Below are positions 1 through 10,106 of a stretch of 10,106 nucleotides of DNA, one piece after another (within the stretch, counting starts at the first letter, position 1; every line of letters starts with the position of its first letter). Location: the NCBI GenBank assembly GCA_947177605.1, contig CAMWUX010000025.1, positions 1 through 10,106 on the forward strand, written 5' to 3'. The notes beneath the pieces are model-generated. The model saw only the letters and a list, made by a program, of their open reading frames with translations, was not told where the DNA came from and searched no databases. Both the position numbers and the translations under genes were made by a program. This DNA comes from an uncultured Porphyromonadaceae bacterium (lineage in GTDB: Bacteria; Bacteroidota; Bacteroidia; Bacteroidales; Muribaculaceae).

Positions 1-1814
1 GCGCGGGTGATGAGCTGGTCGTCGTGGTAGCCTCGCTTTGCGGCGTAGCTGCCGGTGTTGTCGACTTCGTAGACGAGCATTTCGTTGAGGGCGTCGGAGG
101 AGTTTTCTTCATATAGCCCGTCGCGCACTACGCGTATGAGATTGGCTATGATGGCGGCTTTGGTGGCGCGGTTTGTGTGGAATCCGGCGCGGGTGTCGAA
201 TGTGGCGTCGCGCGCACGGTCGCGGCTCCGGCGGACGTAGAGGTTGTGGTAGCGTTCGTTGAGCTGCTCAAGGAGGTATTGCGATGACTCGGTCTGGACG
301 GATTCGAGTGTGTTGCTCTCGATGATGAGGAGTGCATCGCCGTAGGCACGGGCTATCTGCTCGGCATACCGGGCCATGAGGTCGTGGTCGGCGTGGCCAC
401 GCCACTGTGCTACTACGCGTGCGATGCGTCCGGCGCCGCATCCGAGGCGATCCATGACGGTGATTACGGAGTAGTCGCTCGATGCGGCACGGCCTCCGAC
501 ATCGACGGCCACGACATAGCGGTCGGGTGGTGTGAGGCTGCGGCGGCCGGGCTGTGGCGGCAGGCTCCAGAGGCTTAGATGAGAGTCGCGGCCGGGTGGC
601 GAGAGCATCCAGCGAAGGTCGGGACGTTCGGCCACTATTTCGGTGAGCCGGCGCTCGGGGTGGCATCCGCGACGGAGGCGCTCTACGGCTTCGGAGTCGA
701 ATACGGAGCGGTCGGTGGCGGCGAAGGCTTCCTCGGCTGTGGTGGGGAATTCGGAGCAGAGTGCGAGATGCGAGCTGACTTCGCGGGCTTTCTGCCTGTA
801 CCAATAGATCTGATCGAGTGTAAGGCCGATACCCCACAGGCGGCGCTCGAGGCCGGTCCAGTCGGCGACAAATGCTTCGGGGTCGGGCGGCTCGATGCGG
901 TTCAACTCGATCTCGTACCAGGGGATGAATACGGGCACGAAGGAGGAGCGGCCGCTTACGGCTGCGGTCCACTGGCTGTGGAAGAAGTTGCCGGTGCCGT
1001 TGGCGGTCGACTCCATGACGATGAGCGAATCGGCTACCATGGCTATGCCGCCGGTGATGGAGCGGATAAATTCTTCGGGCGAAAGCACGTCGCCGCTCTT
1101 CCAGAATGCTACTTCGGAGAGGTGGGCCATGGAGAAGGGCAGACCGCGCACGGCGTCGGGGGAGAATGTGGATGTGATGGTGACGGTGGAGTCAGTGCCG
1201 GTGATGACGCGTGTGCTATCGGATGATTCCCAGGGCTTCATGGCGGGCTTGCAATCGTAGGGCCAGAGTTCTTCGGGATAGGCGGTGAGGATGTTGCGGA
1301 TGTTGGAGCGGATCTGTCCGGAGGTGTTGCGCGTCTGGGAGCAGATGATTGAATTCCAGTGGGTGTGGTGGAGGAGCTGAATCCAGGTCATGTACACTTG
1401 CACGAGTGTGGATCCGCCCCACTGGCGCGCCTTGAGTAGGATCACGCGTATGGGCATACCGATGCGGCGCTGACGCTCAAATTCGTCGAGCAGGATACGC
1501 TGGGCGGAGTTGAGCACGAACGGTACTTGGCGGCAGGTGATCTTATGGTAGATCTTCACGCAGTTGGCGGCCCAGTACTCGAAATCGTAGCGGCATCGGA
1601 GCGCTTTGTATTCGAGCTTGCCGGCGAGTGATGCGAACGCGGGATCATCGACCATGGCCTGCGGGAGGTAGACTTCGCCTATCTCCCAGGGTACGCGGCG
1701 GGGCACGCGCCAAGAGTGGTCGGCACAGCCGGTGATGGGGTCGTAGCTACGGGGGCGGAGGCTCCGGCGCTCGGCGTCGAGCCTCAGTATTTCGGTTATC
1801 TCAGTGGCAGTCAT
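1..1814 (-). CDS. terL: Phage terminase large subunit (TerL), C-terminus cut by left window edge
   Basis: This is the packaging motor and nuclease that cuts concatemeric phage DNA and pumps it into the procapsid. I translated the minus strand by hand from the ATG at 1814-1812; 604 codons stay open to the left edge, so the gene is incomplete but not frameshifted. The ATPase half has a Walker A-like KARQWGGST (residues 128-136), a Walker B-like HLSEVAFW (231-238, E234) and a coupling-type IVMESTANG (265-273). The nuclease half has the expected acidic triad: D438 in VVAVDVGG, E499 in LLIIESN and D598/D599 in YHDDQLI. The order and spacing match full-length TerL proteins of roughly 550-650 residues, so only a short tail should be missing. 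The start overlaps the stop of the upstream gene as ATGA, which implies translational coupling. All key residues are present, so the enzyme looks functional. Base composition is like the host's. Confidence 0.93.
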   Translation of the reverse strand, partial: MTATEITEILRLDAERRSLRPRSYDPITGCADHSWRVPRRVPWEIGEVYLPQAMVDDPAFASLAGKLEYKALRCRYDFEYWAANCVKIYHKITCRQVPFVLNSAQRILLDEFERQRRIGMPIRVILLKARQWGGSTLVQVYMTWIQLLHHTHWNSIICSQTRNTSGQIRSNIRNILTAYPEELWPYDCKPAMKPWESSDSTRVITGTDSTVTITSTFSPDAVRGLPFSMAHLSEVAFWKSGDVLSPEEFIRSITGGIAMVADSLIVMESTANGTGNFFHSQWTAAVSGRSSFVPVFIPWYEIELNRIEPPDPEAFVADWTGLERRLWGIGLTLDQIYWYRQKAREVSSHLALCSEFPTTAEEAFAATDRSVFDSEAVERLRRGCHPERRLTEIVAERPDLRWMLSPPGRDSHLSLWSLPPQPGRRSLTPPDRYVVAVDVGGRAASSDYSVITVMDRLGCGAGRIARVVAQWRGHADHDLMARYAEQIARAYGDALLIIESNTLESVQTESSQYLLEQLNERYHNLYVRRSRDRARDATFDTRAGFHTNRATKAAIIANLIRVVRDGLYEENSSDALNEMLVYEVDNTGSYAAKRGYHDDQLITR

Positions 1815-4306
1815 AGCGAAGCAAGGTGAAGGGTGATACCATAAAGGGCAAAATCGGCTGAAACTTCGGCCGCGATCTCCACTACCGCCACGGGGCGCAC
1901 GGGCATATCGATACGCGCCACGACGGGGCTACACAGGGGACCGCTGACGGTGAGGGCGGTGGTGATATCATCGTCGGCAGGGGCAGCACTATGGCAGGCG
2001 CGGAGAGTGACGGTGCCTTCGAAGGCGGATGCTGATGCGTGGATGCAAACCGACCGGATGCGTCGGCCGCACGGCACATCGACAATGCGCCGCCACGCCA
2101 CCGGCCTTGCATCAGGGGAGGAGTCCGGGAGCCACACCCCTTCGGCGGAGGTGACGAGGAGCTCGGTGGCTATGTTGGTCAGTGATATGGGAGCGATGGG
2201 GAAGGACAGTGCCGCCAAGGTATCCTGCACGGGGTCGTAGAGCGCGATATTGCCGCGCGGATCGAGGAGCCACGCCACAGAGCCGGGGTAGCTCCACGCC
2301 ACTGCGCGTATCGGGAAACCGATCTGCCGGCCGCGCACCGTGGTGCCGCTCAGGCGCAGCAGTTGGGATCCGCTTGCCGCCATCACTCCGACAGGCGTGA
2401 CGGCCACGGAGGCACCCTCGGTCACAGGCCGACCGTCGACGAGTGCCGAACTCAGAGCGGTGGTGTCGGCGCGTCCGGTATTTATGGCAAAGATACCTGC
2501 CGAGCTGAATGCGTAGGCCCGTGCCGAGGCCGAATCCCATGCCGAAAGAGTGCGCCGGGCGGGGGTCAGGGCCACGATCGGAGCGGGACAGCAGAGACCG
2601 GCCTTAACAGGAAGGGATGGAGCCGACAGGGGTGCTACGGCCACGGCACCGGTGTGGACGCTGCCGGTGATGCGTGGCTGCGGAGCGGGGATGGGACCGG
2701 TGAATGCGGTCCAGGGCTGTGACTGAAAGCCGGGGTCGAGGTGGAGCGCCGACGCACCGTCGGCAGCCGGCTCAAGGTCGACGTGGCCGTGGAGCAGGGA
2801 GGTGCCCCGCCTGATATACACATCGAGCGAGAGGGCATCGGCCAAAGGCCACGCTACGAGGGGCGCCCACCCTACCGGGGCGCTCCCGGAGCCGGTGATG
2901 GTGTAGGCGAGTTGGTCACCGTCGCGCAGGGCGACGCGCACCTCGGCGGTCCACTCACCGGTGAGCGACGAATCGAAGGTGCAGATATTGGTAAGATCTA
3001 CCGTGGCGGGGGGCAGCGGGGTGAGATTGCCCCACATCACGCGGTCGCCGCACACGCATCCGCAGCGGGCGATGAAGGTCGATGGTGCCTGCAGGCTCCG
3101 CAGCAGAGAGTCGGCTTCGGTAGTCACCCCGGATCGGGCTGCGAGCGACCCGGCCTTAGCGGCGGCGCGATTGTCGGCCTCGACACCCTCGAAGGGTGGC
3201 GCATCGACAGTATAGTCGCCCTCGGCAAAGGGAGCGGTGAGCCGCAGGCGACGTGAGAGCACAGCCGACGGATTGGAGAGGATAGCCTCCAGTCTGCGGG
3301 CGTAAGCGCCCTGATTGGAGGCGAAGCGGGATGTGGCGCCCGGTATGGCCACGGTGAGCGCGGGCTGCTGGGTGGTCACCGCCGTCCATCTCACCGGCAT
3401 CTCGGCGGAAGGGTCGACTGGGTGGCACTGCGGGCCTGTCCATACCTCCACGTAGCGCACACCGGCGGCATTGAGCCCGGAGGCACAGGAGAGCGACAGA
3501 TGCAGCTTGAGCCGGTAGGCGTCGGCTGTGACAGTCATCGCCCCGACTTCCACCGAGTCGGCCGAGGGCTTGGAGCAGAGAGCGGTGAGCAATGCGGTGG
3601 CCTGCACCGTGGAGCGCGACATCATGGGGGCTGATTCGATCAGCGCGTTGCCGTCGGCATCGCGCAGCACGATCCGCGCGGCGACGGGCTGCAGCCAGAG
3701 GGCGCCGTTGGCCGCTGCCGCCGCCATCTCCTCATACGCGCTACAGAGGTCGGAGGCAAGGGTGCGCATCTGCCCTTCGGGTACTTCTATACCGGTGCGA
3801 GTGGCTGTCACTTTGGTGAATGTGCGCTCTGCCACGCGCGAGGTAAGGCGTCCGGCGGTGGCTGTGAGGAGCTGTGGAATCATCAGCCCGGGCGTCCCAG
3901 CCTGAGGGCATATCCACTCGCCGTCGACAAAACGCAGCGTGAGCGGCCCGGCGGAGGTCATCACCGTGAAGCCTCCGGCTGTGGCTACGGCGCAGTATAT
4001 CTCCTTGACGGAAGGGTGCTCCGGCTCATACGGATCGTCGGTATCCACGGCCACCCAGAGCGACATATCGGAGGGGGTATGGGAGCAGTAGAGGGTGGTC
4101 GACAGCCCGGAGTCGTCGGGATGATGCCAGGTGGCGAGCGGCGTCAGGCCGGGCATGGCTATATGCCGCAGAGCCGGCGCGGTAAGGAGCGCGCGGCGGC
4201 CGCCGTCGGTGGTAGAAACGAGATTGGCGCAGCGGTCAACGGCGCCGTCGGCACCCATCGCATCGGGCGCCAGATCGATACTAAGATCGGCAGTGTGTGT
4301 CTTCAT
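1811..4306 (-). CDS. Large beta-rich phage-type structural protein, function unknown, 831 aa
   Basis: I do not recognise a named family. The start is placed at the ATG 4306-4304 (MKTHTADLSIDL); an in-frame TTG at 4357 would add 17 residues but lies inside the candidate -7 box. The protein has no signal peptide or membrane segment. It is rich in Ala, Ser, Thr and Val with alternating beta-strand patterns. Residues about 600-730 show repeated blade-like stretches: GIFAINT, VGVMAASGSQLLRL, VAWLLDPRGNIALYDP and ELLVTSAEGVWLP. These suggest a beta-propeller, followed by a terminal beta-sandwich-like region. The N-terminal RCANLVSTTDGG loosely recalls the start of P22 gp10-like tail or stabilisation proteins, but that is only a resemblance. 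It sits first in the operon and overlaps terL by ATGA, so a virion or head-completion role is the best inference. An adhesin-like protein carried by a domesticated phage module is an alternative. Confidence 0.72.
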   Translation of the reverse strand: MKTHTADLSIDLAPDAMGADGAVDRCANLVSTTDGGRRALLTAPALRHIAMPGLTPLATWHHPDDSGLSTTLYCSHTPSDMSLWVAVDTDDPYEPEHPSVKEIYCAVATAGGFTVMTSAGPLTLRFVDGEWICPQAGTPGLMIPQLLTATAGRLTSRVAERTFTKVTATRTGIEVPEGQMRTLASDLCSAYEEMAAAAANGALWLQPVAARIVLRDADGNALIESAPMMSRSTVQATALLTALCSKPSADSVEVGAMTVTADAYRLKLHLSLSCASGLNAAGVRYVEVWTGPQCHPVDPSAEMPVRWTAVTTQQPALTVAIPGATSRFASNQGAYARRLEAILSNPSAVLSRRLRLTAPFAEGDYTVDAPPFEGVEADNRAAAKAGSLAARSGVTTEADSLLRSLQAPSTFIARCGCVCGDRVMWGNLTPLPPATVDLTNICTFDSSLTGEWTAEVRVALRDGDQLAYTITGSGSAPVGWAPLVAWPLADALSLDVYIRRGTSLLHGHVDLEPAADGASALHLDPGFQSQPWTAFTGPIPAPQPRITGSVHTGAVAVAPLSAPSLPVKAGLCCPAPIVALTPARRTLSAWDSASARAYAFSSAGIFAINTGRADTTALSSALVDGRPVTEGASVAVTPVGVMAASGSQLLRLSGTTVRGRQIGFPIRAVAWSYPGSVAWLLDPRGNIALYDPVQDTLAALSFPIAPISLTNIATELLVTSAEGVWLPDSSPDARPVAWRRIVDVPCGRRIRSVCIHASASAFEGTVTLRACHSAAPADDDITTALTVSGPLCSPVVARIDMPVRPVAVVEIAAEVSADFALYGITLHLASL

Positions 4307-4354
4307 AATAGTGATAAATGTGTGAATAATCTGTTCGACAAAGGAATTACGGTG

Positions 4355-4362
4355 CAAAATTA
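4355..4362 (-). promoter_or_regulatory. Candidate -7 box for the phage-type operon (TAATTTTG)
   Basis: Read on the minus strand this is TAATTTTG, a full match to the Bacteroidetes TAnnTTTG -7 element. It is 48 bases upstream of the ATG at 4306 and would give a leader of roughly 45 nt. No good TTTG -33 element is seen 19-21 bases further upstream, where the sequence instead holds a GC-rich inverted repeat. The box covers the TTG that could otherwise be read as an upstream start, which argues against that start. Confidence 0.5.
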
Positions 4363-4365
4363 CTA

Positions 4366-4379
4366 CCCGCCGGAGCGGG
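4366..4379. other. GC-rich inverted repeat in the divergent control region
   Basis: CCCGC-CGGA-GCGGG is a 5-bp perfect inverted repeat with a 4-base loop. It lies in the spacer just upstream of the minus-strand -7 box and about 30 bases from the lptE -7 box. No gene reads into it from either side, so a terminator makes no sense here. An operator, or a scar at a module edge, is more plausible. The stem is short and could be chance in GC-rich DNA. Confidence 0.3.
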
Positions 4380-4389
4380 CCGACACATA

Positions 4390-4406
4390 TTTTTAAAAAA
4401 AATTTT
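4390..4406. promoter_or_regulatory. A/T tract between divergent promoters
   Basis: Five T, eight A and four T follow one another without interruption between the two divergent -7 boxes, within an otherwise GC-rich surrounding. Such tracts are intrinsically bent and often act as UP elements or ease promoter melting. Here the tract ends three bases before the lptE -7 box, where it could stand in for a missing -33 TTTG. The regulatory role is inferred. Confidence 0.4.
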
Positions 4407-4409
4407 GCG

Positions 4410-4417
4410 TACCTTTG
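4410..4417 (+). promoter_or_regulatory. -7 box of the lptE operon (TACCTTTG), very close to the start codon
   Basis: TACCTTTG matches the Bacteroidetes -7 consensus TAnnTTTG exactly. Only six bases separate it from the lptE ATG at 4424. Transcription normally begins a few bases downstream of this box, so the mRNA would be leaderless or nearly so. No TTTG is found at the usual -33 distance; an A/T tract occupies the region instead. Confidence 0.6.
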
Positions 4418-4423
4418 TGACCT

Positions 4424-4942
4424 ATGAAATCCGTCCGCTACATACTACTCACCCTCACCACCGCCATAATGCTCTCGCTGGGGGGCTGCATACCATCGTT
4501 TACGCTCAACGGCGCTCCGATCGACTACAATGTGTACAAGACTATCCACGTGTCGAACTTTCCCATCCGCGCCGCGCTCGTATATCCTCCGCTGCAGCAG
4601 ACTTTCGAGAACGAACTCCTCAACTATATCACGCGCAACACGCGCCTGCAGACGACCGACGGCCCCTCCGACCTGTCGCTCGAAGGCGAGATCACCCAAT
4701 ACTATCTCACGCCGCAGGCTGTGACGGAGGATGCATACGCCTCGCGCACGCGCCTTACTATAGGTGTGCGCGTGAAGTATTCCGACAATAAGAACGAGGG
4801 TAAGGATGTGGATCAGACCTTCTCGGCCTACCGCGACTTCGACAGCTCGCAGATGCTCAACGATGTGCAGGATCAGCTCTGTCAGGAGATATCGGAAGAG
4901 CTGGTGCAACTGATCTACAATTCCACTCTCGGCAACTGGTAA
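4424..4942 (+). CDS. lptE: LptE-family LPS-assembly lipoprotein
   Basis: LptE is the outer-membrane lipoprotein that plugs the LptD barrel and helps deliver lipopolysaccharide to the cell surface. The 172-residue product starts with MKSVRYILLT and a hydrophobic stretch ending in the lipobox LGGC (residues 19-22), so the mature protein begins at lipidated Cys22. After it come the Bacteroidetes-type LptE features: GAPIDYNVYKTIHVSNFP (30-47), then LQQTFENELLNYI (57-69), then strand-rich DLSLEGEITQYYLTP (83-97). A C-terminal helix covers about 144-166. The length is normal for the family. The gene is first in an operon with a TPR-like gene seven bases downstream and secG. Assignment rests on the lipobox, these sequence features and gene order. 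LptD itself is not in the window. Confidence 0.87.
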   Translation: MKSVRYILLTLTTAIMLSLGGCIPSFTLNGAPIDYNVYKTIHVSNFPIRAALVYPPLQQTFENELLNYITRNTRLQTTDGPSDLSLEGEITQYYLTPQAVTEDAYASRTRLTIGVRVKYSDNKNEGKDVDQTFSAYRDFDSSQMLNDVQDQLCQEISEELVQLIYNSTLGNW

Positions 4943-4949
4943 TCTCAGC

Positions 4950-5699
4950 ATGGAAAACGTCAACGACCCTACATATACCCTCGCCGACCTCTGCCGCGAC
5001 GCAGCCGATCGGTCACTCGACCCCACTCCGGAGCAGATGGAAAATTGGCGCGCCATCGCCGCCCGCTATCCCTACCTCACCCTGCCGGCTATGATGGAGC
5101 TGAGCCACACGCCTGCCGACTCGCCAGAGCGGAGCAAGATCACGGCCCGGGTGGCTCTGTCGGCGCCCGATATCGACTCGCTGCTGCGCCTCATCGATCC
5201 TGACGCGCACTCTCTCAGCGGGTTCTACCCCGCGGAGGAGGAACCGGACACACCTACCACCTCTCAGGCTCTCGACACCTTCCTCGCTACCTACGCCCAC
5301 GCCGACGATCTGCCCGACGAGACGCGTCTGCTCGAAAAAATCATCTTCAACCCGGTGCCGGCCGATTATGCGCTGACTCTCACTGATGATGATCCACTCC
5401 CCCAACCGGCCGACGAGCAGGACTCGCTCCTCGATGCATTTCTGGCCAGTCAGGGGGTAGGTACAGCTCTCCCCGCAGCGGAGCCGGAACGGCCTGCGGC
5501 CACTTCCATACCCGCCGCCCGGGCTGACGATCCGCTAAGCGAATCACTCGCTATGATTTACATCCGTCAGGGACGATATGAGAAGGCTTACGAAATAATC
5601 CGGCAATTAAGTTTGAATTTTCCAAAAAAAAGTATTTACTTTGCAGACCAATTGCGCTTCCTTCGGAAGCTTATGCTTAACGCGGGCAGTGCGAAATAG
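4950..5699 (+). CDS. TPR-like protein between lptE and secG, function unknown, 249 aa
   Basis: This soluble protein has no signal peptide or membrane segment. An N-terminal helical part (about 8-135, including PEQMENWRAIAARYPYLTLP) is followed by an acidic, Pro/Ala-rich linker (about 145-192). A single TPR-like helical hairpin closes the protein (about 195-240: SESLAMIYIRQGRYEKAYEI followed by the FPKKSIYFADQLRF region). Bacteroidales genomes commonly carry a protein with this tail at this position; its role is not established as far as I know. The ATG at 4950 comes seven bases after the lptE stop with no Shine-Dalgarno. A run of eight A at 5624-5631 (FPKKS codons) and a local drop in GC mark the last 120 bases, where a secG promoter may sit. 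Confidence 0.85.
   Translation: MENVNDPTYTLADLCRDAADRSLDPTPEQMENWRAIAARYPYLTLPAMMELSHTPADSPERSKITARVALSAPDIDSLLRLIDPDAHSLSGFYPAEEEPDTPTTSQALDTFLATYAHADDLPDETRLLEKIIFNPVPADYALTLTDDDPLPQPADEQDSLLDAFLASQGVGTALPAAEPERPAATSIPAARADDPLSESLAMIYIRQGRYEKAYEIIRQLSLNFPKKSIYFADQLRFLRKLMLNAGSAK
5612..5643 (+). promoter_or_regulatory. Candidate internal promoter for secG
   Basis: TTTG at 5612-5615 is followed after 20 bases by TTACTTTG at 5636-5643, one mismatch from TAnnTTTG with the standard Bacteroidetes spacing. It lies within the 3' end of the TPR-like gene, in an AT-rich patch, and would give secG a leader of about 80 nt. This would let secG be expressed apart from lptE. The mismatch falls on the conserved A, which lowers confidence. 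Confidence 0.35.
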
Positions 5700-5729
5700 A
5701 TCGAATCACATACGTAAAATACTACAATT

Positions 5730-6110
5730 ATGATATTTACCATTATTCTTATCCTCGTGATACTGGCAGCAGTGCTGCTTATCGGCGTTATTCTCATTCA
5801 GAAATCCAAGGGCGGCGGATTGTCGTCGTCGTTTGCAGGCGCCAATCAGATCGTAGGCGTACGCCGCACCAACAACTTCATCGAAAAAGTGACCTGGGGT
5901 CTTGCTATCGCCATCGCAGTGCTCGCCATCCTCTCCACCTACACCATGCCCGGTGATGCGATCACCACCAAGTCGCGTGTGCAGAGCTCCAACACCGAAG
6001 CTGCCGCAGCTACTTTCGACGGCAACGCCGAGACTACCCCCGAAGCTGCTCCCGCAGAAGTTCCCGCTGCCACTCCCGAACTTCCCGCAGAAGCTCCCGT
6101 AGCCGAATAA
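5730..6110 (+). CDS. secG: Preprotein translocase subunit SecG
   Basis: SecG is the small membrane subunit of SecYEG that helps proteins cross the inner membrane. The 126-residue product has two transmembrane helices (about 2-23 and 53-70). The cytoplasmic loop between them holds the family signature LIQKSKGGGLSSSFAG (22-37) and a conserved basic stretch (GVRRTNNFIEKVTW). Residues about 85-126 form an Ala/Pro/Glu-rich tail, as is usual in Bacteroidetes SecG. At DNA level the decamer CCCGCAGAAG occurs in it twice (6051-6060, 6084-6093), so the tail length may vary between strains. The gene starts 30 bases after the TPR-like gene without a Shine-Dalgarno and ends the operon, with a hairpin downstream. 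Confidence 0.93.
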   Translation: MIFTIILILVILAAVLLIGVILIQKSKGGGLSSSFAGANQIVGVRRTNNFIEKVTWGLAIAIAVLAILSTYTMPGDAITTKSRVQSSNTEAAAATFDGNAETTPEAAPAEVPAATPELPAEAPVAE

Positions 6111-6133
6111 TCTCAACTCTATCATATATGCAA

Positions 6134-6163
6134 GCAGAGGCGCACCGGTCGGTGCGCCTCTGT
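6134..6163. terminator. Strong hairpin terminator between convergent genes
   Basis: CAGAGGCGCACC (6135-6146) pairs perfectly with GGTGCGCCTCTG (6151-6162) around a four-base loop GGTC, and a G-U pair can extend it. It lies 24 bases past the secG stop and about 85 bases past the first KilA-N gene's stop on the other strand. There is no U tract on either side, so it is not a textbook Rho-independent terminator. Position and strength still support a bidirectional stop or 3'-end stabiliser. Confidence 0.68.
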
Positions 6164-6181
6164 CGGTTAGTGGCCTACATT

Positions 6182-6681
6182 GCCATGTGGAATATGCGGA
6201 GGCTGACGCAATGGTATCGCGTGGGGAGACTATTTATGCGCAATACTTATTATTTCAATAGCTTTCTATCGTCATCACTACTCTCCAATACCCCCATCTG
6301 ATGAATGGCTATATGATTAAGTTTCATCAATCGTTCGCTCTGTGGCATACCTTGCTCTATAAACACGGCATTGAGATTTTCCATATTTGAAAGGCATATA
6401 AGTTCGTTGATTGAAGCGTAATCACGTATATTGCCTTTCAAATCGGGATTTTCCTCGCGCCACTGGCGAGCCGTAGTACCGAACATTGCAACATTCAGCA
6501 CATCGGCTTCGTCGGCATAAACAAAAGATGCTTGCTCTCGAGTGATTTCTGCCGGGAGTAAATGGGTCTTGATGGCATCAGTATGTATGCGATAATTGAT
6601 TTTCGACAACTCGCGCTTTGCCGACCACCCAAGCAACCTTTGCTCTTCAGTTTTAAGCCGCTGGAATTCCTTAACGATATA
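6182..6681 (-). repeat. Direct repeat copy 1: 3' half of KilA-N gene plus 3' flank
   Basis: This segment aligns with 7351-7849 with one single-base indel. It has three zones. The flank 6182-6249 is about 83 percent identical by hand count. The tract 6250-6633 differs at five of 384 positions. The stretch 6634-6681 differs at eight of 48 positions, all silent. Beyond about 6682 the copies diverge strongly. Confidence 0.9.
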
Positions 6682-7059
6682 CAACTCAAACTCTACTGAA
6701 ATCCAGCTTGCAAACTTCAATGCAATATCTTTATGAGCGTAAGTTCCGCCATAACGGCCGGATTTAGCAATTATGCCTACGGCATTAGTCGTTTCAATCC
6801 ATTTCTTGGGAGAGAGGGTAAAGGCATTCAATCCTGCTTGCATTCTAAACCCCTCGAATTCGGTGGGTTTAAAATTGGGATTATACAATTGTTCCCATAT
6901 TCCGAGATACTCAATAGTGTTGCGGTTGCGCATCCAGTTTGCAATCACCGCATTAGGCTCATCGCTCTTGTGCCGCGCCAAATCCGTCAAAGAGATATAA
7001 TCATCTCCATTGACTGAGATTATTGTTATATTCGTATTTTTAACAATGATTTTAGCCAT
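6250..7059 (-). CDS. KilA-N domain protein, copy 1 (269 aa)
   Basis: KilA-N is a small DNA-binding fold found in phage and large DNA virus proteins and in many Bacteroidetes genomes; the role here is unknown. The start is the ATG at 7059-7057 (MAKIIVKN), matching copy 2 and lying 29 bases after a TACCTTTG box; in-frame codons up to 7188 are rejected. The KilA-N part covers residues about 1-125: VNGDDYISLTDLA (16-28), RNRNTIEYLGIWE (44-56) and the hallmark GRYGGTYAHKDIALKFASWI (101-120). A likely helical linker (128-141) leads to a C-terminal module (about 142-269), including FGTTARQWREENPDLKGNIR (193-212). From residue 127 on, the protein matches copy 2 with a single D-to-G difference near the end. 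The gene is clearly AT-richer than its neighbours, suggesting acquisition. An antirepressor-like or regulatory role is an inference. Confidence 0.88.
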   Translation of the reverse strand: MAKIIVKNTNITIISVNGDDYISLTDLARHKSDEPNAVIANWMRNRNTIEYLGIWEQLYNPNFKPTEFEGFRMQAGLNAFTLSPKKWIETTNAVGIIAKSGRYGGTYAHKDIALKFASWISVEFELYIVKEFQRLKTEEQRLLGWSAKRELSKINYRIHTDAIKTHLLPAEITREQASFVYADEADVLNVAMFGTTARQWREENPDLKGNIRDYASINELICLSNMENLNAVFIEQGMPQSERLMKLNHIAIHQMGVLESSDDDRKLLK

Positions 7060-7088
7060 GAAATTTTGAAGTGTCTGGAAGCTAATCA

Positions 7089-7096
7089 CAAAGGTA
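7089..7096 (-). promoter_or_regulatory. -7 box of KilA-N copy 1 (TACCTTTG)
   Basis: On the minus strand this reads TACCTTTG, a perfect TAnnTTTG. It ends 29 bases before the ATG at 7059, giving a leader of about 25 nt. A weak -33 candidate (TTTA) lies 18 bases upstream. The copy 2 promoter has the same octamer at almost the same distance, so the two genes are probably expressed in parallel. Confidence 0.6.
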
Positions 7097-7350
7097 CATC
7101 GAATTATTGGAATGTAAATCACCTTGCCGTATATTTTCGTGCCATTTAATCTATCATCTATGGCACTCTTCGCTTTAGCACGCTTCATAAACGTGACCGT
7201 AAAGAAGCCTCGGGGGGTCGGGAATTACGCGAGGATTGCAATAGCCTATACCATTCCTACTAAAAAGAATCGATCTGAATCTTATTTTGTAAGGTTTATT
7301 CTTTAAATTTTCAAATCTTCCGATTTATTATCAAGGCATTAAGCATAGGA
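7097..7350. other. AT-rich spacer between the two KilA-N genes, no supported gene
   Basis: This 254-base stretch lies between the copy 1 promoter and the repeated 3' flank of copy 2. It is mostly AT-rich with a short G-run at 7211-7216. A 60-codon plus-strand frame (7124-7306) has no promoter box, no recognisable domain and no partner elsewhere in the window, so I do not call it. No tRNA or clear hairpin is seen. Confidence 0.5.
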
Positions 7351-7849
7351 GCCACGTGGAGTATGCGGAGACTGACGCAATGAATCTGCGTAGGAGACGA
7401 TTTATGCGAAATACATATTATTTCAATAGCTTTCTATCGTCACCGCTACTCTCCAATACCCCCATCTGATGAATGGCTATATGATTAAGTTTCATCAACC
7501 GTTCGCTCTGTGGCATACCTTGCTCTATAAACACGGCATTGAGGTTTTCCATATTTGAAAGGCATATAAGTTCGTTGATTGAAGCGTAATCACGTATATT
7601 GCCTTTCAAATCGGGATTTTCCTCGCGCCACTGGCGAGCCGTAGTACCGAACATTGCAACATTCAGCACATCGGCTTCGTCGGCATAAACAAAAGATGCT
7701 TGCTCTCGAGTGATTTCTGCCGGGAGTAAATGGGTCTTGATGGCATCAGTATGTATGCGATAATTGATTTTCGACAACTCACGCTTTGCCGACCACCCAA
7801 GTAGTCTTTGCTCCTCTGTTTTAAGTCGCTGGAATTCCTTTACTATATA
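7351..7849 (-). repeat. Direct repeat copy 2: 3' half of KilA-N gene plus 3' flank
   Basis: This is the partner of 6182-6681, offset by 1168-1169 bases. The flank 7351-7417 opens with the palindrome CCACGTGG at 7352-7359, which is CCATGTGG in copy 1. On the KilA-N sense strand it can form a short ACGCA/TGCGT stem. The flank is related to copy 1 outside the coding region, which shows that the duplicated unit reached beyond the stop codon. Confidence 0.9.
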
Positions 7850-8221
7850 GATCTTGAACTCCGGACTAATCCACATCGCGAATTCAAAAGCAATATCTTT
7901 GTGAGCATAAGTGCCTCCATACCTACCGGCTTTAGCCTGAACACTTATAGCATTAGTGCGGGCTACAAATTCTTTAACGCTGATTTTAAAACTATTTAAA
8001 CCCGACTGATTTTTAATTATGGCGAATTCGCCATAATTAAAATTAGGATTATACACTTTTTCCCAAATTCCGATAAATTCAAGTGTGTTTCGATTACGCA
8101 ACCAGTCTGTGATAAAGAAATCTCCATCTTTTGCGCGCAACATATCGGTAAGACAAATGTAGTCTTCCCCATTTACATTGAGCACCGTTACTTCTGTATT
8201 TTGTACGGATATTTTAGCCAT
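7418..8221 (-). CDS. KilA-N domain protein, copy 2 (267 aa)
   Basis: This tandem paralogue of the 6250-7059 gene starts at the ATG 8221-8219 (MAKISVQN). Its KilA-N part (about 1-123) keeps the frame of the fold: VNGEDYICLTDML, RNRNTLEFIGIWE and GRYGGTYAHKDIAFEFAMWI (99-118). It shares only about half its residues with copy 1 and is two residues shorter. Differences cluster at residues 29-38, 62-75 and 80-98, where a different DNA site could be read. From YIVKEFQRLK onward the two proteins are the same except for one G in place of D near the end. Its own -7 box lies upstream, and the ABC permease stop is 72 bases away, so read-through from the exporter operon is possible. AT-rich composition matches copy 1. 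The function is unknown. Confidence 0.88.
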   Translation of the reverse strand: MAKISVQNTEVTVLNVNGEDYICLTDMLRAKDGDFFITDWLRNRNTLEFIGIWEKVYNPNFNYGEFAIIKNQSGLNSFKISVKEFVARTNAISVQAKAGRYGGTYAHKDIAFEFAMWISPEFKIYIVKEFQRLKTEEQRLLGWSAKRELSKINYRIHTDAIKTHLLPAEITREQASFVYADEADVLNVAMFGTTARQWREENPDLKGNIRDYASINELICLSNMENLNAVFIEQGMPQSERLMKLNHIAIHQMGVLESSGDDRKLLK

Positions 8222-8293: not shown

Positions 8294-9460
8294 TTATTTC
8301 TTGCGGGTGGGGTAGAGGTAGCGGGTGGTGAGGACGGCGGTGAGCATGTAGATGCCGGCGAGTATCCAGAGCATGATGTAGGGCTGGGAGTTGGCCGAAA
8401 GGAGTGCGCCGTTGGAGTTGAGGCGGATGAAGCCTTCGACGCCCCATGTGGCGGGGATGGCGTCGCCGACGAGCTGCCAGAAGCCGTTCATGGCGTAGCG
8501 CGGCCATGTGAGACCGGAGAGGAAGAGGAATACGACGGAGGTGAACACGAGCACGAGCATCGAGCTCTCACGCTCTTTGACAAATACGCTCAGGGTGATG
8601 CCCAGACAGCCGGAGGCTATGAGCAGGGGCAGGATGAAGAGCATATAGTCGGTGAGCTCGCCGATGTGGGGCAATGAGAAGATGCGCGGCACGATGAAGA
8701 GTACGAACACACATACGGGTAGGTAGAGGGTGACGTAGCAGAGTACTTTGCCTACGACGGTGGTGAAGCTTCCGGCGGGTACGGCGAGGGGGTCGACACC
8801 GCCGTTGCGCCGGCGTCGCTCGGATCCGCCTGCGGCAAGCATGGTGGTGCCCAAAAGCATACTCTGCTGAAGGATGAGGACGAGTATGCCGGGGATGATG
8901 AAGGATGCGAAGCCTTGCGTGGGGTCGCCGAGCCAATATGCTTCGGAGCCGGTGGGTGCGCCGCTGATGCTCTGTCCTATGAGGCCGAGATCGTCGAGTG
9001 TCTGCTGCTGTATCTGCGCTCCGGCGGCGAGCTGCACGTCGGTAAGGCAGGAGAGGAAGGTGCGGTAGCGCAGGAGGAGCGACATATCGCTGTAGAAGGT
9101 GGCCACGCCCTGCTCTCCGCGACCGAGGCGGTTGCCATAGTCGGAGGGTATCTCAAGTACGGCAAAGGCGTCGTGGGAGTTGAGGATGTCGCGCGCGGCG
9201 GGGAGGTCGGGGGCGTAGTCGTAGACCTTCATGCCCTGGGTGGCATCGAGCATCCTCACCAGATTGCGCGACTGCTCGGAGCGGTCGTGATCCACGACGA
9301 CGAAGGGGAGGTCGGTGAGTGTCTCAGGATTGTAGATTATCGTATAGACCAGCGGATAGGCGATGGTGAGGAAGAAGAAAAACAGCATGACGCCCACGTC
9401 GGAGAATACCAGACGGAATTCCCGGCGATATACTCGAAGTAATGTTGCAAGCCAGTTCAT
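8294..9460 (-). CDS. ABC-2 type exporter permease (388 aa)
   Basis: This is an inner-membrane permease of an ABC exporter, resembling the YbhR/YhhJ drug-efflux type. Its predicted helices are at about 22-42, 183-207, 233-258, 271-293, 299-317 and 361-378. A large periplasmic domain (44-182, with PFVVVDHDRSEQSRNLVRML) lies between helices 1 and 2, which is the ABC2_membrane_3 layout. The motif FLSGLTWP (313-320) and the following amphipathic part (WQLVGDAIPATWGVEGFIRL) are typical of the family. The ATG overlaps the upstream permease stop as ATGA, so the two are coupled and probably pair in the membrane. ATPase and membrane-fusion genes are not in the window and should lie beyond the right edge. 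The substrate cannot be told. Length is normal and the frame is intact. Confidence 0.88.
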   Translation of the reverse strand: MNWLATLLRVYRREFRLVFSDVGVMLFFFFLTIAYPLVYTIIYNPETLTDLPFVVVDHDRSEQSRNLVRMLDATQGMKVYDYAPDLPAARDILNSHDAFAVLEIPSDYGNRLGRGEQGVATFYSDMSLLLRYRTFLSCLTDVQLAAGAQIQQQTLDDLGLIGQSISGAPTGSEAYWLGDPTQGFASFIIPGILVLILQQSMLLGTTMLAAGGSERRRRNGGVDPLAVPAGSFTTVVGKVLCYVTLYLPVCVFVLFIVPRIFSLPHIGELTDYMLFILPLLIASGCLGITLSVFVKERESSMLVLVFTSVVFLFLSGLTWPRYAMNGFWQLVGDAIPATWGVEGFIRLNSNGALLSANSQPYIMLWILAGIYMLTAVLTTRYLYPTRKK

Positions 9461-10106
9461 GGTACGTACACCGGATTTTTACAATGCTTCTTCAATCGGG
9501 GCAGACCGATGAGGCCTACGAGCGGGAATATGAGCAGGGCTACGTAGAAGAAGCGTGAATAATATAGATCGATGCCATTGAGCGCCTGATCCACATATAT
9601 GAGGAAGTAGTAGCGCACGGGCAGTATGTAGCTGAAGATACCGACGGCTCCATACATCTGCTGCACGGGGAATGAGAAGGCTGCGATGGAGAAGGCCAGG
9701 ATGCTCACGAGCGAACAGATGCTTACGGCCAGACGGAGGTTGGGCACGGCGCAGCACACCGTAAGTGCGAAGCCCTGGCAGGCGAATACCATGAGCACCA
9801 TGGCGAGTATCATGTGCCATGCGGGGCAGTTCATGGGGAAGTGGAAGAAGCCGTACATGATGGCCTGACAGCCTACGCCTACTATAATCTCGATGACGGC
9901 CTGCGGCAGGAGTTTGCCCACTACGGCAACGAGCATGGAATTGCCTGACCGGCGGAGCCACTCGGGTGAGGTGCCGCGCTTCATCTCCTCGCAGATGCTG
10001 TAGGCTGTGACGAGGCAGACCATAAGGGCTATCACGCCGGGCACGAAGGAGTTGGTGAGATAATAGTTGTAGTTGGTCCAGGGATTGCCGATCTGCTGCT
10101 GCACGA
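9457..10106 (-). CDS. ABC-2 type exporter permease, N-terminus cut by right window edge
   Basis: Only the C-terminal 216 or so residues are visible; the frame is open to the right edge, and the GTG at 10104 is an internal codon, not the start. The visible part begins at the end of the periplasmic domain (IGNPWTNYNYYLTNSFVPGV). It then shows five or so membrane helices and the family stretch EEMKRGTSPEWLRRS, followed by GKLLP at the cytoplasmic turn after the second helix. It ends in VPVYVP-like sequence (NPVYVP). The stop overlaps the start of the next permease. A pair of homologous permeases in tandem is usual for HlyD-linked ABC exporters in Bacteroidales. The charged tail (RLKKHCKN) should face the cytoplasm. 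Confidence 0.85.
   Translation of the reverse strand, partial: VQQQIGNPWTNYNYYLTNSFVPGVIALMVCLVTAYSICEEMKRGTSPEWLRRSGNSMLVAVVGKLLPQAVIEIIVGVGCQAIMYGFFHFPMNCPAWHMILAMVLMVFACQGFALTVCCAVPNLRLAVSICSLVSILAFSIAAFSFPVQQMYGAVGIFSYILPVRYYFLIYVDQALNGIDLYYSRFFYVALLIFPLVGLIGLPRLKKHCKNPVYVP

Follow-up and report, generated by a model that had tools for sequence, protein, structure and literature searches.

Exchangeable KilA-N readers in a tandem gene pair, and a palindrome in their codons as a candidate self-token

Why should two adjacent genes encode proteins that begin with different DNA-binding domains and end in nearly the same C-terminal module? The question is raised by a tandem pair of KilA-N genes in an uncultured Porphyromonadaceae bacterium (GTDB family Muribaculaceae), on a contig (C25; GenBank CAMWUX010000025.1) that we analysed over a stretch of 10,106 nucleotides, hereafter the window. 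As argued below, the N-terminal KilA-N domains (here called readers) appear to be exchanged on a common C-terminal module, and each is accompanied by a palindrome, nearly always within its own codons, that changes with it and may serve as a self-token. The two palindromes of the window, at positions 6843–6874 and 8011–8042, are absent from the note that first described the pair (the original prediction); they are a more important feature than the tandem pair itself.

Reader domains and the shared C-terminal module

The features of the pair are the following:

6250–7059, minus strand: copy 1, a KilA-N protein of 269 amino acids with reader type 0 (ATG at 7059; KilA-N profile; PADLOC PDC-S22, E = 6e-136)
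7418–8221, minus strand: copy 2, a KilA-N protein of 267 amino acids with reader type 1 (KilA-N profile; PADLOC PDC-S22, E = 6.2e-130)
6676–7059, minus strand: KilA-N reader module of copy 1, about residues 1–128 (sequence comparison, DNA changepoint)
7844–8221, minus strand: KilA-N reader module of copy 2, about residues 1–126 (sequence comparison, DNA changepoint, structural model)
6250–6675, minus strand: shared C-terminal module of copy 1 (sequence comparison, DNA changepoint)
7418–7843, minus strand: shared C-terminal module of copy 2 (sequence comparison, changepoint; its start falls within the long helix 120–157 of the model)
8011–8042, no strand: perfect 32-bp palindrome TTTTAATTATGGCGAATTCGCCATAATTAAAA in the reader codons of copy 2, residues 60–71 (pattern and dyad scans)
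6843–6874, no strand: imperfect palindrome, reading TTTTAAACCCACCGAATTCGAGGGGTTTAGAA on the minus strand, in copy 1 at the codons matching those of copy 2 (pattern and dyad scans)

The two proteins were 79% identical overall and 56% identical in the first ~126 residues; beyond that point they were identical to the C-terminus save for one D/G difference. This agrees with the original prediction, which had the proteins the same from residue 127 of copy 1 apart from one D/G change, with about half of the N-terminal KilA-N residues shared. At the DNA level, the best single changepoint fell at residue 141 of copy 2, with 64% identity before and 98.7% after it (log-likelihood gain, 94), and ~70 bases 3' of both stop codons were also similar, to a lesser degree. 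Both proteins matched the Pfam KilA-N profile (PF04383; E = 1.6e-24 and 4.3e-26, 86.2 and 91.3 bits against a gathering score of 23.8) and PHROG 2657, annotated as a transcriptional regulator (E = 2.2e-59 and 2.5e-62). In a structural model of copy 2, the reader had an Mbp1-like fold, with predicted local distance difference test (pLDDT) values mostly above 90, and the long helix 120–157 connected it to the C domain.

A set of relatives, gathered by similarity to both window proteins, comprised 147 distinct intact genes from 176 found, and many of the close ones came from genomes labelled Muribaculaceae or other Bacteroidales. Single linkage of the N domains at 72% identity divided the 147 genes into reader types with 36, 34, 29, 17, 10, 7, 4 and 2 members, plus 8 singletons. 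Within the 112 genes nearest to copy 2 by C module (the close set), pairs of the same type (1357) had mean identities of 83.0% in the N domain and 80.7% in the C module, whereas pairs of different type (4859) had 53.0% and 79.7%. Even among close-set pairs with C modules at least 94% identical, the reader type differed in 47 of 74.

We also located the DNA changepoint in the 239 different-type pairs whose C modules were at least 90% identical. It fell at residues 120–149 in 203 of them and at residues 85–109 in the other 36, the sharpest being that between L045 (genome G147) and L017 (genome G035), with 58% identity before and 99.5% after. The region coincides with the helix that joins reader and C domain in the model. 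These comparisons point to modular reader swapping as a general trait of the family and bear out the original proposal that one C module has been joined repeatedly to different KilA-N readers. In the close set, the nearest C-module neighbour shared the reader type in 65 of 112 genes, versus 24.5 by shuffling, so some memory of ancestry persists despite the swaps. A protein database yielded at least 8000 matches to the C module (residues 128–267), of which the best 120 all carry KilA-N. A protein encoded on another contig, of 3473 bp (P0002), combines the copy 2 reader (99%) with the C-terminal allele of copy 1 (100%).

According to the original prediction, the tandem arrangement would also allow specificities to be swapped or combined. 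Of 397 genomes in the bacterial family, 127 gave a match to the gene family at E ≤ 1e-10; among the matches listed, two copies lay within ~2 kb of each other only in the window, in G068 and in G026 (a fragment plus a gene). Genome G068 holds three copies, one of them broken, with three different palindromes, and its intact copies have different reader types (DNA identity 53% before the changepoint and 97.3% after). Outside the bacterial family, L128 holds a fragment plus a gene, and G398 has two reader relics of differing type 224 bp apart. Thus the idea gains a second array with differing readers and near-identical C modules, but tandem arrays are rare among the matches listed and the tandem state is near a one-off, so we retained the mixing of specificities as part of the story and not as the whole of it. 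In genomes with two intact typed copies, the same type occurred twice in 0 of 13 (expected 2.81, P = 0.044), a weak result in a count that includes one identical gene added by hand. Two same-type sites in G402 were taken for one gene split across two contig ends.

The palindrome, with and without its gene

The palindrome has the form TTTTAA-n6-CGAATTCG-n6'-TTAAAA. When we required the best dyad to be centred at nucleotides 100–260 of the gene, with at least 11 of 16 pairs, 143 of the 147 intact genes had a coding palindrome (core CGAATTCG in 112, CGAATTTG in 27 and others in 4), which lay at the same codons in the genes listed in the dyad scan. The other four (L117, L122, L123 and L125), all of the copy 2 type and from three assemblies labelled Lachnospiraceae or Clostridia, had a TTATGG palindrome 29–37 bp upstream of the start codon, so that a palindrome in cis accompanied 147 of 147 genes. 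In the window, a loose pattern (up to 2 mismatches) gave four strand matches, i.e., the two sites, where shuffled sequences led us to expect 0.01; the exact pattern occurred in the assembly that contains the window (incomplete: 1.40 Mb, 63.8% complete) only at the two gene sites, and the reversed control gave 0. Over 143 cellular and 23 viral genes, we counted 45 different in-gene half-sites.

Several observations bear on whether the dyad is constrained as DNA. Across 76 distinct in-gene 32-mers, the inner six bases matched between the two sides at 5.30 of 6 positions; when right halves were shuffled among genes, the match was 2.36, and the largest of 2000 trials gave 3.00. The excess of codon homogeneity was 0.38–0.39 in the two bins covering residues 61–72 and at most 0.15 in every other bin. 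Synonymous constraint peaks only at the palindrome codons.

These data speak to two alternatives. One holds that a phage-type regulator was simply duplicated in tandem and that its 3' half underwent gene conversion, the palindrome being a by-product of the protein motif F-[NK]-x-x-E-F-x-x-[IF]-[KR]. The C halves of the pair are indeed near-identical as DNA and several motif residues are conserved, but variation in the inner bases on one side is matched on the other, strong synonymous constraint is confined to the palindrome, and four genes hold their palindrome outside codons; we consider this explanation very improbable. Gene conversion of the C module is in itself accepted within our preferred reading. 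The other alternative is an RNA hairpin, with the dyad kept as an mRNA stem-loop. The perfect palindrome could, by direct reading, form a 14-bp stem with a 4-base loop, and over all 16 pairs T.G (coding strand) was the commonest mismatch (47 cases, mostly at the end of an AGA/AAA codon). Against this, the inner mismatches of the 76 distinct sites were A.C in 22 cases, G.T in 5 and other in 26, classes that an RNA stem would not favour, and 41 of the 64 gene-free viral sites described below lie outside any frame of at least 80 codons, which makes a hairpin hardly credible.

We then compared half-sites with protein domains, masking the palindrome residues. Half-site similarity correlated with N-domain identity (0.71) and not with C-module identity (0.02). 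With neighbours above 90% N identity also left out, the nearest neighbour agreed in half-site for 133 of 147 genes when chosen by N domain versus 21 of 147 when chosen by C module (shuffled mean 24, maximum 39). In these comparisons, reader and palindrome are shown to change together on the shared C module. Because the half-site follows the reader and the palindrome is under constraint as DNA, we infer that the KilA-N reader binds its own palindrome, probably as a dimer. The different in-gene palindromes of the window likewise suggest that its two readers bind different DNA.

A protein that binds within its own gene might simply be an autorepressor, acting through a palindrome ~200 bp inside the gene, with the match between reader and site kept by autoregulation and with no token role. 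Such an intragenic operator is consistent with the presence of a palindrome in cis in every intact gene, with the dependence of the half-site on reader type, with the annotation of PHROG 2657 as a transcriptional regulator and with the operator-like place (29–37 bp before the start codon) of the palindrome in four genes. It would leave unexplained two sets of palindromes considered next, those retained in gene relics and those in viral stretches without any family member, and we therefore deem it unlikely, while giving it real weight.

The relics comprised 21 loci, namely 20 fragments from protein searches plus one, in genome G019, found by DNA comparison. We left out G044:C23 (weak and distant), G086:C260 and G114:C54 (contig edges) and the broken third copy of G068, which retains its palindrome. 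The palindrome codons were kept in 19 of the 21, each with 12–16 of the 16 dyad positions; in the two others, G036 and G050, a contig end cuts that side. Once the nearly whole, frameshifted gene of G033 (one of the 19) and the two contig-cut relics were set aside, 18 relics were usable for a retention profile: residues 61–90 were present in 18 of 18, residues 121–220 in about 4–6 and the last residues in 8. Residues 58–71 were fully kept in 18 of 18, compared with 8.1, and at most 15, under circular shifts. A comparison of core and flanks in relics was biased, the sites having been found by the pattern itself, and we did not rely on it. When two relics aligned end to end were left out, the stretch holding the palindrome ended at residues 90–100 in 9 of 16 relics, ~60–90 bp after the palindrome.

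Viral contigs were scanned with the pattern TTTYAAn6CGAATTYGn6TTARAA, which occurred in at least 120 stretches (reversed pattern, 1). The 121 sites in 120 stretches fell in full family genes (45) or fragments (4), in stretches with a family gene elsewhere (3), or in stretches with none (69, or 64 after removal of duplicates). These 64 free sites had an inner dyad of 3.86 of 6, as against 2.29, and at most 2.80, upon shuffling. When compared with 37 reference half-sites from 143 genes (0.9% of 6-mers), at least one half was identical to a gene half-site in 44 free sites, and both halves in 16. A stop-to-stop frame of at least 80 codons held 23 of the 64 free sites versus 33 of 34 distinct in-gene sites. 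A protein-word scan of the viral contigs with copy 2 returned only two short matches, far fewer than the DNA pattern recovered. The viral stretches L304, L320 and L266 contain additional, similarly built palindromes close by (e.g., core GGAATTCC in L320), so that our pattern captures only part of the motif family.

Two Streptococcus elements illustrate the relation between free and in-gene sites. In phage Javan527, a stop codon immediately precedes the site, and the scaffold and capsid genes follow it; in S. suis satellite phages such as Javan588, the family gene contains a site 93.8% identical to that of Javan527. Relatives were present in 22 INPHARED phage records, with at least 80% of the query covered in 11 of them, and Javan527 is not one of these 22. 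Sites similar to the query palindrome also occur in two Staphylococcus phages, SP197 (90.6%, under a gene annotated as dUTPase) and DW2 (86.2%, under a gene annotated as putative SaPIbov1 derepressor).

In host genomes, the pattern occurred in 105 of the 397 genomes of the bacterial family, with the reversed control at 0 in every row. Out of 21 candidate free sites in 20 host stretches, 5 lay outside reader matches (L397, L402, L403, L404 and L411), that of L411 being 90 bp beyond a 54% relative; one more site without a reader match, in L410, was read as reader DNA. The free sites of L402, L403, L404 and L411, from four host genomes, are palindromes with TTCCCC halves and have no common flanking reader sequence.

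Eight of the 64 free viral sites (four different sequences) join two known, unlike half-sites. Such hybrids could be recombinant junctions, if the palindrome were a crossover or insertion site for a recombinase or integrase; in line with this, the site of phage LR1 lies between genes annotated as integrase and recombinase, and others lie beside a tRNA-like stretch (L320) and a tmRNA-like stretch (L278), both read from the letters. Still, the changepoints of 203 of the 239 gene pairs lie at residues 120–149, away from the palindrome, half-sites track the reader domain, the Javan527 site is in the capsid gene region, away from the ends, and other free sites are not near integrase genes or tRNA-like stretches. 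A recombination or attachment site is, to our minds, improbable.

A candidate self-token and its counterparts

The reading we prefer is that the palindrome in cis acts as a self or immunity token for a palindrome-reading KilA-N protein, a proposal, drawn from comparative data, that we judge about equally apt to prove right or wrong. The protein would read palindromes through its N-terminal KilA-N domain, which is joined to a helical C-terminal module common to the family, and would act against invading or competing mobile DNA, as suggested by its resemblance to a defence candidate and by the occurrence of the family in phages, satellite phages and plasmids. DNA carrying the cognate palindrome would be spared, or the protein would be titrated by it. 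Reader and DNA address would then form one exchangeable unit: because the token sits among the codons of the reader, it would travel with any swap of specificity. The persistence of palindromes without genes and their occurrence in phages are easier to reconcile with a token of benefit to its carrier than with an operator or a target, since a 32-bp site that does harm and lies outside genes would be expected to disappear.

Other observations weigh against the token. The free viral sites are less symmetric than the in-gene ones (3.86 of 6 versus 5.35 of 6), so not all of them need be targets of the same proteins, and the viral stretches are partial, so that a family gene may sit elsewhere on the contig. 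Genome G408 holds two same-type sites. The retained relic stretches extend ~20 residues beyond the palindrome, so the element being retained may be a different one within that piece. The benefit of a self-token is less obvious for a chromosomal gene than for a prophage, and the upstream palindrome of four genes also suits an ordinary operator. Finally, the closest parallel, BstA (see below), has no detectable sequence relation to the family (hhalign probability 0.1, profile of 47 against the single BTP1 BstA), and no comparable palindrome was present in or just before bstA.

A broader version of the token proposal, which we put forward tentatively and consider somewhat less likely than not, is that of a widespread self/non-self system of mobile DNA. 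The protein would act on DNA lacking its 32-bp address, which lies within its own reader codons, and reader and address would be traded together, as a cassette joined to a shared effector. Addresses, free or hybrid, would accumulate as immunity tokens in phages, satellites and chromosomes, and a chromosome would retain the token after loss of the gene. Pairs such as that of the window would hold two addresses, and their identical C modules might give heterodimers that read hybrid addresses.

We know of no described DNA-binding family in which a conserved palindrome, the likely recognition site, lies inside the codons of the reading domain. In type I restriction, replacing one target-recognition domain by another in an otherwise conserved HsdS changes specificity, and the likeness with the present family lies in this replacement of DNA-reading domains. 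To our knowledge, no HsdS gene has its recognition site conserved as a palindrome within the domain that is exchanged, nor do we know of an in-gene cognate site for the KilA-N/APSES DNA-binding domains of Mbp1 and PCG2. In a literature search covering mostly open-access work, without bioRxiv, none of the matches listed described, by title or start of abstract, an own-site palindrome in reader codons that changes with the reader and outlives the gene.

Both window proteins matched over their whole length the PADLOC model for PDC-S22 (PDLC04962), as did the homologue from satellite phage Javan588. PDC systems are grouped, in the accessible part of the source, as unvalidated or of unknown mechanism (PMC12813430). 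PDC-S22 is a single-gene defence candidate, and that part of PMC12813430 does not mention the palindrome.

The closest parallel in logic is BstA, a KilA-N-like prophage protein for abortive infection that is suppressed, in a variant-specific manner, by a short DNA element of its own locus, aba (the available portion of PMC8585504). In the present family, a palindrome matched to reader type stands in cis with the gene and might play such a part. According to the same portion, aba overlaps the start of the gene, whereas the site described here lies within the reader codons, and reader swapping on one C module, present in our family, is not described there (PMC8585504). The PADLOC model for BstA matched BTP1 BstA and not the window proteins, up to E = 0.1. 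Membership of the BstA family was thus rejected on sequence (hhalign probability 0.1); a remote relation between BstA and the KilA-N domains of this family may nonetheless exist.

Domain swapping has also been reported among KilA-N and Bro-type proteins, in a network where KilA-N is one of ten Pfam domains (accessible sections of PMC10111431). Exchange of a DNA-interacting domain on otherwise conserved proteins, as in that network, is what type pairs and changepoints indicate here. The Bro-type network swaps different kinds of domain, whereas the present family exchanges KilA-N variants, together with a DNA site, on one C module. Two further candidates were set aside, judging from the sections available: IbfA (PMC12111858), an unrelated ATPase/TOPRIM protein, and a study of viral mRNA structure that names KilA-N for one viral orthologous group as an example and does not mention this palindrome in those sections (PMC6563262).

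In this family, then, a domain swap likely swaps the recognition site too. If binding were confirmed, the genes would state their own specificities, and the 45 in-gene half-sites would provide a test set for a protein–DNA recognition code. If the token model were true, self-immunity of the BstA/aba kind would no longer be confined to one prophage family but would include a large family found in bacteria, plasmids, satellites and phages, and PDC-S22 would gain a testable mechanism.

The site around the pair

The history of the locus could be examined through G019, a genome of the same genus with a permease 99% identical and with flanks shared with window positions 1–6174 and 8303–10106. Protein searches found no KilA-N match in G019. 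Between the flanks, this genome has an XRE-type gene, an AlbA_2/HATPase_c_4 gene and, in opposite orientation, the short relic of a copy 1-type reader that was detected by DNA comparison and that retains the copy 1 palindrome. The window contains a remnant in turn:

7139–7214, minus strand: relic (76 bp), located between copy 1 and copy 2, of an AlbA_2/HATPase_c_4 gene (100% identity to part of the G019 gene)

This relic shows that the site turns over. A longer reading frame for copy 1, starting at 7188, was rejected: its ATG falls within the relic of another gene and is hence spurious. The locus is a variable site with several defence-like genes, and the window probably combines two specificities with a C module that has been homogenised, at a place where such genes come and go. 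The XRE-type gene of G019 (together with the AlbA_2/HATPase_c_4 gene, at positions 9702–11516 of L239) resembles PADLOC PDC-M64C.

Each KilA-N gene is followed, at 6182–6213 and 7351–7382, by a short repeat that terminates in ctgacgcaat(t)g (91% alike), and similar repeats lie beside other genes at the counterpart site of G019 (L239, ~10060 and 11770); it is possibly a dispersed intergenic repeat. The pair is adjoined by secG on one side and by two ABC-2 permease genes on the other. Farther away, on the minus strand, the window contains a gene resembling that for the large subunit of a terminase (positions 3–1814, PHROG matches) and a gene of 830 codons without Pfam or PHROG match (1811–4303); these adjoin lptE, a TPR gene and secG, making up a phage-like fragment beside housekeeping genes.

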